Positions 1,510 to 7,276 of a stretch of DNA of 7,359 nt are shown piece by piece. The notes beneath the pieces were generated by a model, which ran no database searches, was not told the DNA's origin, and saw nothing but the letters and a program-made list of their open reading frames with translations. The first letter of the stretch is position 1, and the number at the start of each line of letters is the position of its first letter. The translations under genes were made by a program, and so were the position numbers. Source of the stretch: Bacillota bacterium (GTDB lineage: Bacteria > Bacillota > Bacilli > Alicyclobacillales > SLC66); assembly GCA_021820825.1 (NCBI GenBank), contig JAKADD010000124.1, forward strand, positions 1-7,359, written 5' to 3'.

Positions 1510-2850
1510 ATGGAAGACGTGCTGTGCCAGCAGCGCATTCGCATCCATATCCGGGGATTACAGGACAATCAGACGGGGCGACTGCTGGAGTCGCTTCTGC
1601 AAATGGTTGAAGGTGTCATCGCGGTCAGGGCGAATCCCTTTTCCGAACGGCTGGCCGTCGATTATGACAACCGCAAAATTCACGCCTGGCAACTGACGGC
1701 GCTTGCCGGGCGTTTACAGACCGCTCCCTTTTCCTCTGTGCCGACGGCGGCCTACGCATTGCGGCGTCACCAGATGTATCTGACGCTGCCCGTCGTTCTT
1801 TTCGCTGCACTGTTGGTGCGCCGCCTGTTGCGAGGAAAAACGGCCTTCGCCAACAGTGTGATCATTTATGAACTCGCCACGACTGTCGCCGTTTTTTCTG
1901 GATATCCATTACTGCGAAAGCGTGTCGACAGCCTTGCCAGGCGATTGGGGGTGAGCGACGAACTGATTCTTGGCAGCGCAGCGCTGTTCGTTGCTGTCCT
2001 GCGCGAATCATTGCTTGTGTTTGCGGCGTTATTTCTCCTTAGCTATAATTCCTATCGCAAGCGCAACAGCACGGTCTCGGCCGTCGCCAAGGCAGGAGAC
2101 GCGGTCGCCGACATCGACAGCGAGAACCGGGAACCGCGGTCAGTGTCGCTGTACGCTGAGAAGTCTTCAAGAATCGGACTGATCGGGGCAATGCTGACCG
2201 GCCTGATGACCAGAAGTCCTGTTGCAGCCAGCAGCGTCCTCGTCGCCGCCAATCCTCGTCCCGCCGTGCTCGGGGCCCGTTACAGCCTGAATCACGCGGA
2301 GATACTGACGCATGAAGACTGTCGGTATATACCCATGCATACTGGCATGGATTTGTACGAATTGCCGGAAGCGCGCGAAATTGTCGTTCTCCATGCGCGG
2401 ACGCCCGGTTGCGAACCAATTGCCGATCCAGACCTGCTGATTTATGCTGCAAAGCGCACCATGGTTCTGCGCACACCCATACACAGCGAAACCTTTCCGG
2501 AAAGCGCACCCACCTCTCGCCAGCGCCAAGCACGGGAGAGGCTGCGCAGAATCATCCTGTTGGGAGACGAAGTAAACTTTCCCGCGATCCATCAACGGCA
2601 GGATCATACAATCTATCTGCGCGGGTCCCAGTCCGCTTTGCTCCAGACACTGCGACTATCTGAAAACCTGCATCAGTTCCTGGCCGTTTCTACACGACAC
2701 AGCATGTTTTTTGCCGGTTTTTTGGCGGGTCTCGCCGCGTTTGGACTGAACGCCAACGCTGTCAATCTGCTGGCTGACGGATTCACGATCGCAACTCTGG
2801 CCAGGGGGGAACGGCTGGAACACCCCCAGGCGCAGAGCAACCATCCGTGA
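1510..2850 (+). CDS. Degenerate heavy-metal P-type ATPase-like membrane protein (probable pseudoenzyme)
   Basis: A 446-residue protein. Residues 8-75 look like an HMA-type ferredoxin fold ('RIRIHIRGL...GVIAVRANPFSERLAVDYD', HMA_2-like) without CxxC. Hydrophobic segments follow at about 89-106, 113-133, 152-180 and 222-247, with a further one at about 397-424. The order and local motifs parallel CtpC-like P1B ATPases: GYPLLRK (131-137), LRESLLVF (164-171), and a C-terminal LRLSENL...LNANAVNLLADGFTIA (381-429). The catalytic parts are missing. About 30 polar residues replace the actuator domain with TGE. The CPC position reads NPR (248-250). The DKTGT position appears to be HARTP (295-299). The hinge GDGxND appears as GDEVNF (352-357). 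Families with activity are usually 600-800 aa. The frame is intact, and AAGGAG (1496-1501) sits 8 nt before the ATG at 1510, so it looks maintained. Function is unknown; a regulatory or scaffold role is only a guess. Motif alignments were made by eye. Confidence 0.72.
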   Translation: MEDVLCQQRIRIHIRGLQDNQTGRLLESLLQMVEGVIAVRANPFSERLAVDYDNRKIHAWQLTALAGRLQTAPFSSVPTAAYALRRHQMYLTLPVVLFAALLVRRLLRGKTAFANSVIIYELATTVAVFSGYPLLRKRVDSLARRLGVSDELILGSAALFVAVLRESLLVFAALFLLSYNSYRKRNSTVSAVAKAGDAVADIDSENREPRSVSLYAEKSSRIGLIGAMLTGLMTRSPVAASSVLVAANPRPAVLGARYSLNHAEILTHEDCRYIPMHTGMDLYELPEAREIVVLHARTPGCEPIADPDLLIYAAKRTMVLRTPIHSETFPESAPTSRQRQARERLRRIILLGDEVNFPAIHQRQDHTIYLRGSQSALLQTLRLSENLHQFLAVSTRHSMFFAGFLAGLAAFGLNANAVNLLADGFTIATLARGERLEHPQAQSNHP

Positions 2851-2967: not shown

Positions 2968-3615
2968 CTAGTCGCTGTCACGCTTCAACATATCGACAAG
3001 GCTGTGATAATCCGGTTTGAAATCTGCTCCCACATGCGCTACATCGTCCACGAAGTGACGCAACGCCTGGCTATTTTTATTTTTGACGGAAAAATCGTCC
3101 GGCGCCCCGTGCTGAGGATAGTGTTTGCGCGTCTGCGCACCCGCCGTCTGCGGCAACAGATGGGCGGGCAGAAGCGATCCGCCGGAGTTCGCAGTGTCCG
3201 TTCCCATCTGGCCGATCTCAGTGGAACCCGCAGTTCTGGCCTTCCGCATCCAGCCCCTCGTTCCTTCGACAACGCCCTCAGTCGCATTCATCGTCGAGGC
3301 GAGCCCATTCACCACGGCTTGACGCAACCATGGTCGTTTCTGATCTGTTCGCGTCTCACTCTGATCGTGAGTATGCAGGCTGTTCGCAGCAGAGTTTGGC
3401 AGTCCGGCGTCAGTCTGCACAGTTCCGTCATTTTTGCCGCCTCCCAGACGTTTGACGCCATCCCCAAACGCCATGACGCCAACCGCCGCATTCACTGTGG
3501 CCGAACGAAGCGTTCGCCGGATTGCCGGAACAGCCAAAATACTGGCGACTCCGAGAGCGATCCAACCCACTGGATTCCCGGCTGTGAAAGAACTCCTTAG
3601 CATACGGATCACCAT
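2968..3615 (-). CDS. Hypothetical membrane-anchored protein with DUF5132/YtxH-like N-terminus
   Basis: A 215-residue protein I cannot assign a function. One hydrophobic segment (about 15-31, GWIALGVASILAVP) follows a short basic N-terminus. An arginine-rich, small-residue helix (33-57) ends in FGDGVKRL. The rest, from about 58, is polar and low in hydrophobic content (Gly/Ser/Thr/Asn/His), with a second possible amphipathic helix at 97-127 and a more ordered C-terminal tail at 182-211. Residues 22-57 align without gaps to residues 17-52 of the divergent 85-aa neighbour, so the two are probably related. The start at 3615 is supported by AGGA (3630-3627), 11 nt upstream within a purine run AAGGAAAGGGGGG; an in-frame ATG at 3603 is less well placed. 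A minus-strand terminator follows the gene. The coding call rests on the membrane segment, the ribosome site, the terminator and the homology. The plus-strand frame over the same stretch has none of these. Confidence 0.68.
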   Translation of the reverse strand: MVIRMLRSSFTAGNPVGWIALGVASILAVPAIRRTLRSATVNAAVGVMAFGDGVKRLGGGKNDGTVQTDAGLPNSAANSLHTHDQSETRTDQKRPWLRQAVVNGLASTMNATEGVVEGTRGWMRKARTAGSTEIGQMGTDTANSGGSLLPAHLLPQTAGAQTRKHYPQHGAPDDFSVKNKNSQALRHFVDDVAHVGADFKPDYHSLVDMLKRDSD

Positions 3616-3754: not shown

Positions 3755-4012
3755 ATGCAAAGAACAATTACAATTGAAGGCCTGTTACTGGGTATTGGCA
3801 TCGGAGTTTTGGGAACGATGATGGCGCCGCTTGTCAGACAGCGCTTTAAACCTGCCGCCGCTACTGTGACAGAAGGCCTGTCGGCAATTGGGGAGGGCGC
3901 AAAAAAATGGAGTGAGATGGCAAAAGAAGAAGTTCAGGATATTGTGGCTGAAGCGCAGTTTGAACGCATGCGCAGAGCGATTGACAGAGACGATTTGCAG
4001 CCCCCACACTGA
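3755..4012 (+). CDS. Small DUF5132-like single-pass membrane protein
   Basis: An 85-residue protein with one N-terminal hydrophobic segment (about 8-27, rich in Gly: LLLGIGIGVLGTMMAPL). A basic stretch (RQRFK, 28-32) follows, then an amphipathic helix (36-78) ending in acidic and charged residues (KEEVQDIVAEAQFERMRR). The layout 'G..G....P.......P.....G......A......E....DI.AEA' resembles the short DUF5132 family, whose function I do not know. The start at 3755 was chosen because GGGAGGA (3739-3745) lies 9 nt before it. An in-frame ATG at 3746 would be directly on that site. The stop codon lies at the edge of the loop of a 12-bp hairpin. Its neighbours are a divergent homologue and, beyond it, the ATPase-like gene. 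Confidence 0.75.
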   Translation: MQRTITIEGLLLGIGIGVLGTMMAPLVRQRFKPAAATVTEGLSAIGEGAKKWSEMAKEEVQDIVAEAQFERMRRAIDRDDLQPPH

Positions 4013-4032: not shown

Positions 4033-5580
4033 CTAGACGGGATAGACGGGGTGTTTGCGACGGGCAAACTGCACATTCTTGCCGTCGTAATGCCGCAATC
4101 GCGCCGCCAGTTCCGTACGCAGATCCTGCGGAGCCACGACCGCATCGACAACCATTTCTGACGCCAGTCTGAAAACATCAATGTCCTCGCGATACTCAGC
4201 CCGTTTCTGTTCAACAAAAGCGGTGCGCTCCGGCTCCTGCAATTCTGCGATTTTATTGGAATAGACGGCATTAACCGCCGCCTCAGGTCCCATCACCGCA
4301 ATCTGGGCTGTCGGCAGAGCGATGCAAACGTCCGGCTCAAACGCCGGTCCCGCCATGGCATAGAGCCCTGCGCCGTAAGCCTTGCGCACGATCACCGACA
4401 GCTTTTGCACCGTAACGTCTGACATGGCGGCGATCATTTTGGCCCCATGCCTGATGATGCCCGCCCGCTCCACTTTCGTGCCAATCATGAAACCAGGCAC
4501 ATCGGCCAGAAACAGCAGTGGAATCCCATAGGCGTCGCAGAGGGCGATAAAACGGGCGGCCTTGTCAGCCGAATCGCCAAATAACACACCACCCTTGACG
4601 CGCGGCTGATTGGCCACAATTCCCACCGGACGGCCGTCGATCCGCGCCAGACCAGTAATGAGTTCTCCGGCGAACAGGCGCTTCACCTCGTAAAAACTGG
4701 CGTCGTCAATCAGATGGTCAATCAGTTCGTACATATTGAATGGCGCGTTTTGATTGACAGGAATGAGTTCCTCAATGCTTGTCTTCGCCGCTCCAGGTGC
4801 GTGTGGTTTCGCCATCGGTGGAGCAGCCGCATAATTGGCCGGAAAATAGGAGAGATAACGGCGCGCCGATGCGATGGCCGCTTCTTCGTCAGGAACGAGA
4901 ACGTCACCGCAGCCGCTGACCGAACAGTGCATGCGGGCGCCCCCCATCTCCTCCAGGGTGACTTTTTCGCCAATGACCATCTCCGCCATTCGCGGCGAAC
5001 CCAGATACATGCTGGCGTTTCCGTCAACCATGATCACGATGTCGCAAAAAGCGGGAATGTATGCGCCGCCAGCGGCAGAAGGACCAAACAGCACGCATAC
5101 CTGCGGCACCATGCCCGACATTTTGACCTGGTTGTAAAAAATCCGCCCGGCGCCGCGCCGGCCGGGAAACATTTCTACCTGATCCGTGATGCGCGCACCT
5201 GCAGAATCGACAAGATAGACGATGGGTACGCAGAGTTTGATCGCCGTTTCCTGTATGCGAATGATCTTTTCCACCGTTCGCGCGCCCCACGATCCTGCCT
5301 TGACGGTCGAATCGTTTGCCATCACGCAAACTGTTTGTCCGCCAATTCGCCCCAGACCGGTGACGACGCCATCCGCTGGCAAATCGCCGGCAAGCGCATT
5401 GGCAAACTGTCCATCTTCCAGTTCGCACCCTTCATCAAACAGAAGCTGCAACCGGTCGCGCACGAACAATTTTCCTGCTTCCTGGTTTTTCTCGTGATAG
5501 CGGAGCGCCCCGCCCGCCGTTACCTGTGTCTGCAATTCCCGCAATCGCTCCTGATGCGCCGCGTGTTGATCCGCACTCAT
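4033..5580 (-). CDS. yngE: Acyl-CoA carboxylase carboxyltransferase subunit (methylcrotonyl-CoA carboxylase beta-like, YngE)
   Basis: A 515-residue biotin-dependent carboxyltransferase that moves CO2 from carboxybiotin on the carrier protein to an acyl-CoA. By context the substrate is 3-methylcrotonyl-CoA. The two crotonase-fold halves are visible. The N-half has VDSAGARITDQ (124-134) and GPSAAGGAYIPAFCD (166-180), the acyl-CoA/oxyanion site. The C-half has NQPRVKGGVLFGDSADKAARF (about 324-344), LADVPGFMIGTKVER (358-372) with GIIRHGAKM following (374-382), and AYGAGLYAM (401-409). Length matches B. subtilis YngE (about 511 aa). It is the last gene of the operon. Its ATG lies 9 nt after the yngF stop codon, and GAGGTGG, which overlaps that stop codon, provides the ribosome site. 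A strong hairpin lies just past its end. Propionyl- or geranyl-CoA carboxylase beta subunits are alternatives on sequence alone; the neighbours decide against them. Confidence 0.93.
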   Translation of the reverse strand: MSADQHAAHQERLRELQTQVTAGGALRYHEKNQEAGKLFVRDRLQLLFDEGCELEDGQFANALAGDLPADGVVTGLGRIGGQTVCVMANDSTVKAGSWGARTVEKIIRIQETAIKLCVPIVYLVDSAGARITDQVEMFPGRRGAGRIFYNQVKMSGMVPQVCVLFGPSAAGGAYIPAFCDIVIMVDGNASMYLGSPRMAEMVIGEKVTLEEMGGARMHCSVSGCGDVLVPDEEAAIASARRYLSYFPANYAAAPPMAKPHAPGAAKTSIEELIPVNQNAPFNMYELIDHLIDDASFYEVKRLFAGELITGLARIDGRPVGIVANQPRVKGGVLFGDSADKAARFIALCDAYGIPLLFLADVPGFMIGTKVERAGIIRHGAKMIAAMSDVTVQKLSVIVRKAYGAGLYAMAGPAFEPDVCIALPTAQIAVMGPEAAVNAVYSNKIAELQEPERTAFVEQKRAEYREDIDVFRLASEMVVDAVVAPQDLRTELAARLRHYDGKNVQFARRKHPVYPV

Positions 5581-5589
5581 CGTGCCACC

Positions 5590-6366
5590 TCACTGTCCCT
5601 TGTAGTCTGGTTTTCGCTTTTGCGCAAAAGCCAACAGTCCCTCCATCCGATCACTCGTACCAATCACGGATTCATACGCCGTCTGCTCAATGCGCAGTCC
5701 CTCCTTGAGCGACACCTCCGCGCCCTGATCGATTGCCAGTTTGGCCTGGCGAATGGCGATGGGACCGCCGTCCGCAATCTCCTGCGCCAGAGCGCGCGCC
5801 TCGGCCAGAACATCGTCCGCAGCGGCCACATACTGAGCCAGACCCAATGCGCCCGCTTCACGACCCGAGATTCTGCGACCCGTGAAGATGAGATCCTTCG
5901 CCCGCGCAGACCCCACCAGCCGCGCCAGGCGCTGAGTACCCCCAGCGCCCGGAATGATAGCCAGCCGCGTCTCCGTCAGCCCCACAACAGCATCCGCCGC
6001 AACCACGCGCAGATCGCACGCCAGCGCAAGTTCCAGACCCCCGCCGAGCGCCACACCGCGAATCGCCGCGATCGTCGGTATGGGCAAATCCGCAAACCCC
6101 TCAACCACTGCGCGAATGCGCCCCACGGCAAGCCGCACCTCATCTTCGTTCATGGAGCGGCGTTCCTTCAGATCCGCGCCCGCGCAGAAGGCGCGGCTGC
6201 CGGCGCCGGTCACAATCACGCAGCGCGCCTGCGCATCCAGCCGCACCGTGTCCAGCGCCTCAGACAGTTCCCGCAGCAGCGCCGTTGAGAGCGCGTTCAT
6301 GGCCTCTTCGCGATTGAGCATGAGCACACGCAAAGAGCCCTCATGGATGAGATTACAGAGAGCCAC
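5590..6366 (-). CDS. yngF: Enoyl-CoA hydratase/isomerase family protein, methylglutaconyl-CoA hydratase-like (YngF)
   Basis: A 258-residue crotonase. By operon context it hydrates 3-methylglutaconyl-CoA to HMG-CoA, the step between the carboxylase and the lyase encoded beside it. The oxyanion-hole segments are CAGADLKERR (61-70) and IRGVALGGGLELA (102-114). The two catalytic glutamates expected from rat enoyl-CoA hydratase (Glu144, Glu164) correspond to Glu112 and Glu132. PGAGGTQRL (139-147) follows. It starts with GTG at 6366. This start lies inside the preceding gene (14-nt overlap) and is supported by GGGGGG (6374-6379) 7 nt upstream and by alignment of the first beta strand (LIHEGSLRVLMLNR). 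The GTG start and overlap suggest translational coupling to yngG. A general short-chain enoyl-CoA hydratase is possible. Confidence 0.92.
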   Translation of the reverse strand: MALCNLIHEGSLRVLMLNREEAMNALSTALLRELSEALDTVRLDAQARCVIVTGAGSRAFCAGADLKERRSMNEDEVRLAVGRIRAVVEGFADLPIPTIAAIRGVALGGGLELALACDLRVVAADAVVGLTETRLAIIPGAGGTQRLARLVGSARAKDLIFTGRRISGREAGALGLAQYVAAADDVLAEARALAQEIADGGPIAIRQAKLAIDQGAEVSLKEGLRIEQTAYESVIGTSDRMEGLLAFAQKRKPDYKGQ

Positions 6367-7276
6367 AGTCTAACCCCCCATTCGCAAACTGTACGGCGCT
6401 CGCATGGCTGCGCAACGAGTGGCCAACAGCGCGCTGCAATTCAGCAAGCGGCCGTTCCAGCGCCCGACTGCGAACGCCCGAAGAAATTCCGAGACCTTCC
6501 AGCATGTACACAAGATCATCGGTCGCCACATTGCCTGAGGCGCCGGGCGCGTACGGGCAGCCCCCCAAGCCGCCAAGCGCGCTGTCAAACGTCGTGACGC
6601 CCATCATCAGCCCAACCAGGATATTGGCCAGCGCCGTTCCCCGCGTATCGTGCATATGCAAGGCCAACCGGTTGGTAGGGATGTATCTCAGCAATGTTTC
6701 AAGCACCCGCTCCGTATCGCCTGGCGTGGCGACGCCAATGGTGTCTCCAAGCGATATTTCATCCACTCCGTCCTCCAGCAGTTGCATGGCCACACGCACG
6801 ACCTGCTCGACCGCTACGACGCCTTCGTACGGACAGCCAAACACCGTCGACACATAGCCCCTCACATAGGCGCCCTGTTCTTTGGCTGTATTGGCCACAG
6901 CCCGCAGCACGGGGTGGGTTTGCGCAATCGTCTTGTTAATGTTGCGCTTGTTGTGCGTCTCACTCGCAGACATGAAGACTGCAATCGCGTTCACGCCAAC
7001 CGCAAGAGCCCGTTCCAGTCCGCGTTCATTGGGCACCAGCGCACTGTACACAACCCCCGGCTGTCTGCGAATGCAGGCAAACACCTCAGCGGCGTCGGCC
7101 AACTGCGGAATCCAGGCGGGATTGACAAAGCTCGACACTTCAATGAACGGCAGTCCCGCGTCCGTCAAACTGTCAATCCAGGCGATTTTCGCGACCGTCG
7201 GCAAAACCGAGGGTTCATTCTGGAGCCCGTCACGAGGACCGACCTCCCAGATCCGGACCTGCTCAGGCAGTCTCAT
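6353..7276 (-). CDS. yngG: Hydroxymethylglutaryl-CoA lyase (YngG)
   Basis: A 307-residue TIM-barrel enzyme that cleaves (S)-HMG-CoA to acetyl-CoA and acetoacetate, the last step of leucine breakdown. The full set of family residues is visible: EVGPRDGLQNE (11-21) with the Arg15/Asp16 pair, Glu47 in FIEVSSFV, SLGDTIG (175-181), the metal-binding HMHD (207-210), and the C-terminal signature GLGGCPYAPGASGN (236-249) with active-site Cys240 and Asn249. Length matches bacterial HMG-CoA lyases (about 300 aa). The ATG lies 2 nt after the stop codon of the upstream biotinyl carrier gene, with GGAG 5 nt before it inside that gene's end. Its own end overlaps the start of yngF by 14 nt. The spacing indicates one operon. 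Confidence 0.96.
   Translation of the reverse strand: MRLPEQVRIWEVGPRDGLQNEPSVLPTVAKIAWIDSLTDAGLPFIEVSSFVNPAWIPQLADAAEVFACIRRQPGVVYSALVPNERGLERALAVGVNAIAVFMSASETHNKRNINKTIAQTHPVLRAVANTAKEQGAYVRGYVSTVFGCPYEGVVAVEQVVRVAMQLLEDGVDEISLGDTIGVATPGDTERVLETLLRYIPTNRLALHMHDTRGTALANILVGLMMGVTTFDSALGGLGGCPYAPGASGNVATDDLVYMLEGLGISSGVRSRALERPLAELQRAVGHSLRSHASAVQFANGGLDCGSL

Follow-up and report, generated by a model that had tools for sequence, protein, structure and literature searches.

Introduction

P-type ATPases normally hold the whole pump cycle in one chain. There are systems, such as the Kdp complex and the Na+,K+-ATPase with its beta subunit, in which a catalytic P-type ATPase works with non-catalytic membrane subunits. 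CtpH and CtpI (FUPA 24) are twice the normal length, with their motifs in the C-terminal region (PMC3573892), and a 2023 review calls pumps of this type uncharacterised and possibly a family of their own (PMC10654040). The available portions of these two papers do not describe the N-terminal half of CtpH/CtpI as a dead P1B ATPase. The PacL/DUF1490 proteins are small membrane proteins encoded with the P-type ATPase CtpC, and have been proposed to be scaffolds of metal efflux platforms (PMC9374683, PMC13043812). A search of open-licence PMC full text for P-type ATPases together with pseudoenzyme or pseudo-ATPase-like phrases returned no paper.

Here, a stretch of 7,359 nucleotides from a member of the Bacilli (the window) is analysed. 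It carries a gene for a retained, catalytically dead P1B-type ATPase, which is probably a non-catalytic subunit of a P2A-type cation pump.

Layout of the gene and its protein

The gene is an intact open frame of 446 codons on the forward strand. The features of the locus are as follows, with residues numbered as in the 446-residue protein.

1496-1501, + strand: ribosome-binding site AAGGAG, ending 8 nt before the ATG (from the sequence)
1510-2850, + strand: pseudo-P1B ATPase gene, 446 aa (open frame; conserved in 13 of 59 genomes of the order; dN/dS 0.21-0.23 against the nearest relatives)
1528-1725, + strand: HMA-like domain, residues 7-72, without CxxC
1729-2094, + strand: helices equivalent to MA, MB, M1 and M2, residues 74-195, including Glu166 (model; profile alignment)
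2095-2136, + strand: site of the missing actuator (TGES) domain, residues 196-209 (alignment with P1B ATPases)
2137-2316, + strand: helices equivalent to M3 and M4, residues 210-269 (model, alignment)
2251-2259, + strand: NPR, residues 248-250, at the metal-binding CPC site (alignment)
2296-2385, + strand: most conserved block, residues 263-292, including His268 and Cys271 (pN; residue counts)
2392-2394, + strand: His295, aligned with the Asp that is phosphorylated in DKTGT (alignment; not conserved)
2395-2625, + strand: reduced remnant of the P/N region, residues 296-372
2629-2820, + strand: helices equivalent to M5 and M6, residues 374-437, including Asp423 (model)
2968-3615, - strand: gene converging on the main gene, for a 215-aa protein whose N-terminus has a membrane segment (13 of 13 genomes have a homologue at the locus)
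3755-4012, + strand: 85-aa DUF5132-like membrane protein (homologue at the locus in 13 of 13 genomes)

Pfam finds no P-type ATPase domain in the 446-residue protein, and gives only a sub-threshold match to HMA_2 (residues 7-64, E 3.6e-4). NCBIfam gave no match for the three proteins tested. The similarity to P-type ATPases is seen both by profile comparison and by VIA-align. Foldseek against the PDB had no match at E<=0.001 for either model, and the support for the fold comes from VIA-align. The two marks of P1B ancestry, an HMA domain and the P1B membrane core, are both present in the protein. A relationship to MFS transporters (Pfam MFS_2, E 0.012) was ruled out, the match being below the cutoff and found in one of 17 homologues.

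Several residues stand out. Cys6, just ahead of the HMA-like domain, is kept in 16 of 17 homologues, the remaining one lacking that end. His268 and Cys271 are His and Cys in all 17 short-form homologues and are found only in the clade of the window protein. In the P/N remnant, HQR at 361-363 is present in all 15 homologues that retain this stretch.

Two other parts of the window, both on the reverse strand, are ordinary. An FMN-dependent oxidoreductase (Pfam Oxidored_FMN; old yellow enzyme family) is encoded at 265-1329, and 4033-7276 holds carboxyl transferase, enoyl-CoA hydratase and HMG-CoA lyase-like genes, which look like a cluster for breaking down leucine or branched-chain acids.

Loss of the catalytic motifs

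The motifs were compared in an alignment of 42 rows, consisting of 37 pseudo-P1B sequences (17 short, 16 tandem and four clustered forms, the latter two described below) and five P1B controls. TGES occurs in all five controls and in none of the pseudo-P1B rows, every one of which has a gap there. The CPC site reads CPC in all controls, NPR in 36 of the 37 pseudo-P1B rows and SPR in the other. DKTGT is likewise found in 5/5 controls and 0/37 pseudo-P1B rows, two of these being gapped at the site; an Asp occurs there in a single tandem row (T_L204) and, under profile alignment, also in L051. The window protein has LHART at this site. GDGxND is present in all five controls, and the corresponding hinge of the window protein is GDEVNF. 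Two acidic membrane residues are retained almost throughout: Glu166 in 37/37 and Asp423 in 36/37 pseudo-P1B rows.

In a tree of the shared region, the pseudo-P1B rows are split from the P1B ATPases with support of 100/100, and the short form is a single clade (100/99). The lack of catalytic motifs in the pseudo-P1B rows, together with this separation, implies that the loss of catalysis is old and common to the short, tandem and clustered forms. Profile comparison links the short form to the tandem N-terminal half at 99.8% and to P1B ATPases at 96.3%, with controls below 1%, and links the tandem N-terminal half to P1B ATPases at 99.7% over 553 columns. A profile search also matches a complete P1B ATPase at E 2.9e-13. 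Lacking the actuator domain, CPC, DKTGT and GDGxND, the window protein cannot, as judged from its sequence, be an active P1B enzyme of the known kind.

A previous sequence-only reading of this DNA had proposed an intact frame with a good ribosome site, an HMA-like domain and membrane core in P1B order, a missing actuator domain, and NPR in place of CPC. All of this is borne out, the fold similarity by profile and VIA-align, and the last two points by the profile alignment. It had also read HARTP as the altered DKTGT and GDEVNF as a surviving hinge. His295 does align with the phosphorylated Asp, and GDGxND is indeed absent, but neither set of letters is conserved (the G and the D of the hinge each occur in 3 of 17 homologues at those columns) and they carry no signal. 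The loss at every catalytic motif holds, but it is not local to this protein, being old and shared with the tandem and clustered relatives. TGES and DKTGT are both absent from all 17 aligned short-form homologues; none is full length with motifs, which rules out a simple deletion in a live pump.

The shortest homologues (L061:9796-10908 and L062:9221-10357, of 370 and 378 residues) have lost the P/N remnant; their HMA domain and final helix pair remain, and the CPC site reads NPR or SPR.

Distribution and selection

A search of 5.8 billion clustered proteins gave nine matches at 45-100% identity, one of which is the window's own protein with two differences. Two of the nine are named, from Sulfoacidibacillus ferrooxidans and S. 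thermotolerans, Sulfoacidibacillus being a member of the Alicyclobacillaceae. The profile search adds two homologues from Ferroacidibacillus organovorans, besides the complete P1B ATPase. The plasmid collection has no match to the window protein, and searching it with the tandem N-terminal half gave 14 weak partial matches and no full-length one.

Among 59 genomes of the order, 19 match: 13 have the short gene, five have open frames of about 1500 residues in which the related part is N-terminal, and one has a weak match to the HMA domain only. The short gene and the long form occur together in none of the 59, some of the genomes searched being incomplete. Both small neighbour genes of the window have homologues at all 13 short-gene loci. 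The wider surroundings recur as well, with cell-division genes, a BshC-like gene and, at most loci, acyl-CoA genes (names assigned by eye).

All 17 aligned homologues have open frames, at 35-81% identity to the window copy, and 39 columns are invariant across them. By the Nei-Gojobori method, dN/dS is 0.21 and 0.23 between the window gene and its two nearest relatives, 0.19 between those two relatives, and 0.10 for another homologue pair. In three pairs of greater distance, the silent sites are saturated (pN/pS 0.26-0.33). For comparison, the neighbouring genes give 0.18 (FMN oxidoreductase), 0.06 (carboxylase), 0.23 (215-aa protein) and 0.09 (85-aa protein). Compared with its two nearest relatives, the window gene is almost unchanged over residues 263-292 (pN 0.000 and 0.014); in the window comparison the final helix pair shows faster change (pN/pS 0.61 and 0.53). 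These dN/dS values are far from 1, and with the open frames they uphold the earlier view of a retained pseudoenzyme rather than fresh decay. A recent pseudogene is ruled out by dN/dS of 0.10-0.23, by the 17 open frames and by synteny.

Tandem and clustered forms

In the proteins of about 1500 residues, the pseudo-P1B module forms the N-terminal half and is followed by an intact P2A ATPase. Five come from the order and twelve from the protein search, some of these being the same or nearly the same as the five; those named are from Alicyclobacillus dauci, Tumebacillus flagellatus and Paenibacillus piri. TGES, PEGL, DKTGT and GDGVND are all present in the six tandem C-terminal halves examined. 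The window protein is not of this type: it has 446 residues and no C-terminal pump, and is homologous only to the tandem N-terminal half.

In the class as a whole, 28 of 299 genomes match at E<=1e-8. In 21 of them there is a frame of at least 1424 residues, length being the main criterion for this group; two of the 21 have a frame of 630-700 residues besides. The other seven comprise two with only a 639- or 648-residue frame, four with a gene of the window type, and one with a 228-residue frame near a contig end.

Four other Bacilli genomes with open frames of 616-678 residues were examined at the locus (L199-L202). Here the pseudo-P1B ATPase has its own gene, in a cluster that also contains a P2A pump gene and homologues of the window's 85-aa neighbour. 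In L199 the pseudo-P1B gene is succeeded on its strand by a DUF5132-like gene and then by a gene of the HMA-P2A type (an HMA-like domain joined directly to a P2A ATPase, with no pseudo half; Pfam HMA_2 E 7.9e-9). In L200 the P2A gene lies upstream, with an MFS gene on the other strand between it and the pseudo-P1B gene. In L201 and L202 the P2A gene is also upstream and is partial in the sequence examined, DKTGT being visible in L202 and only the C-terminal part in L201. A DUF5132-like gene comes after the pseudo-P1B gene in all four, followed by a second small gene in L200-L202.

It is worth adding two observations on these clusters. Behind the pseudo-P1B gene of L199 there are two HMA-P2A pump genes in a row (6653-9769 and 9942-11001), the second running past the end of the sequence examined. 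Upstream of the pseudo-P1B gene there are open genes for pseudo-P2A ATPases of 922-1046 residues (L199:743-3883, L201:1675-4446 and L202:2174-4942). These match Pfam E1-E2_ATPase at E 3e-20 or better, and have lost TGES, DKTGT, TGD and GDGVND, with PEGL changed to PGG.

A catalytic pump at a separate locus

In the clade of the window protein, the pseudo gene and the HMA-P2A pump are at different loci. The pump was found in 8 of the 13 short-gene genomes and in one of the 46 others (G050, where no pseudo gene was found), giving a Fisher p of 4.8e-6, uncorrected for kinship. Of those 46 genomes, 31 were classed as SERCA-type by best match, G050 was read directly, and 14 were taken from match tables; the P2A loci L102 and L106 were left out of the best-match classing. 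In the five short-gene genomes with no HMA-P2A pump found, the tested pump neighbours (exchanger, 347-aa, thymidylate-kinase-like and NYN genes) are missing too; one far pump neighbour is also missing in G002, a genome which has the pump, so that in these five the pump may be either lacking or missed.

Pfam recognises the HMA part of these pumps weakly: against HMA_2, eight of the nine HMA-P2A pumps match at E 0.074 or better, one of them over the cutoff, and L173 has no match. A tree of 36 rows places the catalytic part of these pumps as the sister group of its tandem counterpart (100/100), away from the SERCA-type pumps. A DUF5132-like gene linked to that of the window at 95.6% follows the pump in L123 and L125; L125 also has, behind the pump, a 71-aa gene whose homologue lies next to tandem pumps (97.7%, 70 columns). 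In L123, genes of the Na_Ca_ex, VTT-domain and TerC kinds lie downstream on the strand of the pump (12233-14756) and hint at homeostasis of Ca2+ or Mn2+.

The small accessory genes

The 85-aa protein is linked to the small genes beside clustered and tandem pumps at 99.6% (E 8.7e-24), although its match to Pfam DUF5132 has an E of only 0.042. The literature collection searched has no paper on DUF5132. For the 215-aa protein, comparison with a small protein beside tandem and clustered pumps gave 92.3% over 44 columns, covering the N-terminal membrane segment, with seven sequences, and only 32.5% with three, so this link is moderate. DUF1490 has no match at E<=10 in either small protein of the window. 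The window thus appears to hold three parts of a system, whose catalytic part would be located elsewhere or is not seen.

A further small, soluble-looking family of 71-92 residues, ending in SWISF or a similar motif, recurs beside tandem, clustered and HMA-P2A pump genes (L049:7598-7825, L052:2432-2710, L125:11977-12192, L200:6893-7144, L201:7216-7452 and L202:7351-7581). One member tested, that of L200, has no Pfam match.

Discussion

The descent of the gene from P1B ATPases, the loss of its catalytic motifs and the selection acting on it are well supported. What the sequence-only reading observed is confirmed, and its interpretation is supported. Among the roles it suggested, that of partner of a real pump gains specific support from the fused and clustered forms, the partnership itself remaining a proposal from gene content.

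In related bacteria, the pseudo-P1B ATPase is fused to, or encoded near, a working cation pump, and it is therefore probably a non-catalytic pump subunit. The best reading is that the window protein would serve a P2A cation pump as a subunit or regulator that has no catalytic role and is no longer fused to it. We hypothesise that in its lineage the system has been dispersed, the pseudo-subunit sharing one locus with its two accessory genes and the HMA-P2A pump lying at a second, and that the encoded proteins remain associated in the membrane. Pumping by ATP hydrolysis would then not be a function of the HMA domain or of the altered membrane core, in which Arg250 would lie with Glu166 and Asp423; these parts might instead sense the cation, hand it on, or stabilise the pump. 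The conservation of Glu166, NPR and Asp423 suggests that charged residues have replaced the metal site of the membrane core and that the HMA domain senses or donates the cation, and Cys6, His268 and Cys271 may make up a metal site of more recent origin. As to the cargo, the PEGL motif of the pump and its Na_Ca_ex and TerC neighbours give no more than a hint of a Ca2+- or Mn2+-like ion. The co-occurrence of the pseudo gene and the HMA-P2A pump could be plain shared descent.

The three cysteine and histidine residues also bear on a different role, as a free-standing cation or membrane sensor no longer working with the P2A pump, in which they would bind metal and the state would be relayed through the two accessory proteins. 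Their conservation only in the clade of the window protein, the least changed block around them, the separation of the pseudo gene from the pump, and the 5 of 13 genomes which show no HMA-P2A pump all favour such a sensor. Against this, 8 of 13 genomes have the pump, the accessory genes are those of the pump clusters, and no regulator gene is seen adjoining the pseudo gene, so that we regard this role as unlikely.

It is less likely still that the protein is a scaffold or partner of some other pump, for example an ordinary P1B metal exporter or a SERCA-type ATPase. Of the 59 genomes of the order, 51 have P1B relatives of P0012 (E<=1e-60), four genomes with the pseudo gene have 3-7 P-type ATPases each, and there is a precedent in the PacL proteins, which hold CtpC as scaffolds (PMC9374683). 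However, the fused and clustered forms indicate one particular P2A type, not a P1B or SERCA-type pump. Finally, a slowly decaying relic of a former tandem pump is very improbable: the P/N remnant has indeed disappeared from L061 and L062, and faster change is seen in the final helix pair in the window comparison, but the frames are open in 17/17 homologues over 35-81% identity with 39 invariant columns, dN/dS is low in all four unsaturated pairs, and both neighbour genes are retained in 13 of 13 genomes.

If the subunit reading is extended to the class, one can tentatively envisage, at somewhat less than even chances, a set of multi-subunit P-type pumps in Bacilli in which dead P-type ATPases are subunits of a live one. 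Such an assembly would have an HMA-P2A pump as its catalytic member, joined by a pseudo-P1B ATPase, in some clusters by a pseudo-P2A ATPase as well, and by as many as three small membrane proteins, and it would occur in fused, clustered or dispersed form. Fusion would account for the large N-terminal half of the CtpH/CtpI-type ATPases, and the subunit reading would give that half a testable role. If it is true, a dead paralogue serves as a subunit, fused or separate according to species, and P-type pumps can be regulated by pseudoenzymes.

Comparison with known systems

The proposed arrangement recalls the Kdp complex and the Na+,K+-ATPase, and differs from them in that their non-catalytic subunits are not themselves dead P-type ATPases. 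The PacL platforms are a functional analogy only; the small proteins of the window have no DUF1490 match at E<=10, and PacL is not a dead ATPase. With the P1B metal-transporting ATPases of the CopA, ZntA and CtpC type, the window protein shares the HMA domain, the extra N-terminal helix pair and the six-helix core, whereas it lacks their actuator domain, CPC, DKTGT and GDGxND. The tandem ATPases of Bacilli, which are like CtpH/CtpI (FUPA 24, TC 3.A.3.24) by described architecture alone, have as their N-terminal half the same pseudo-P1B module, with NPR at the CPC site. The difference is that their module is fused to a catalytic P2A half, whereas the window protein stands alone and retains little of the P/N region.
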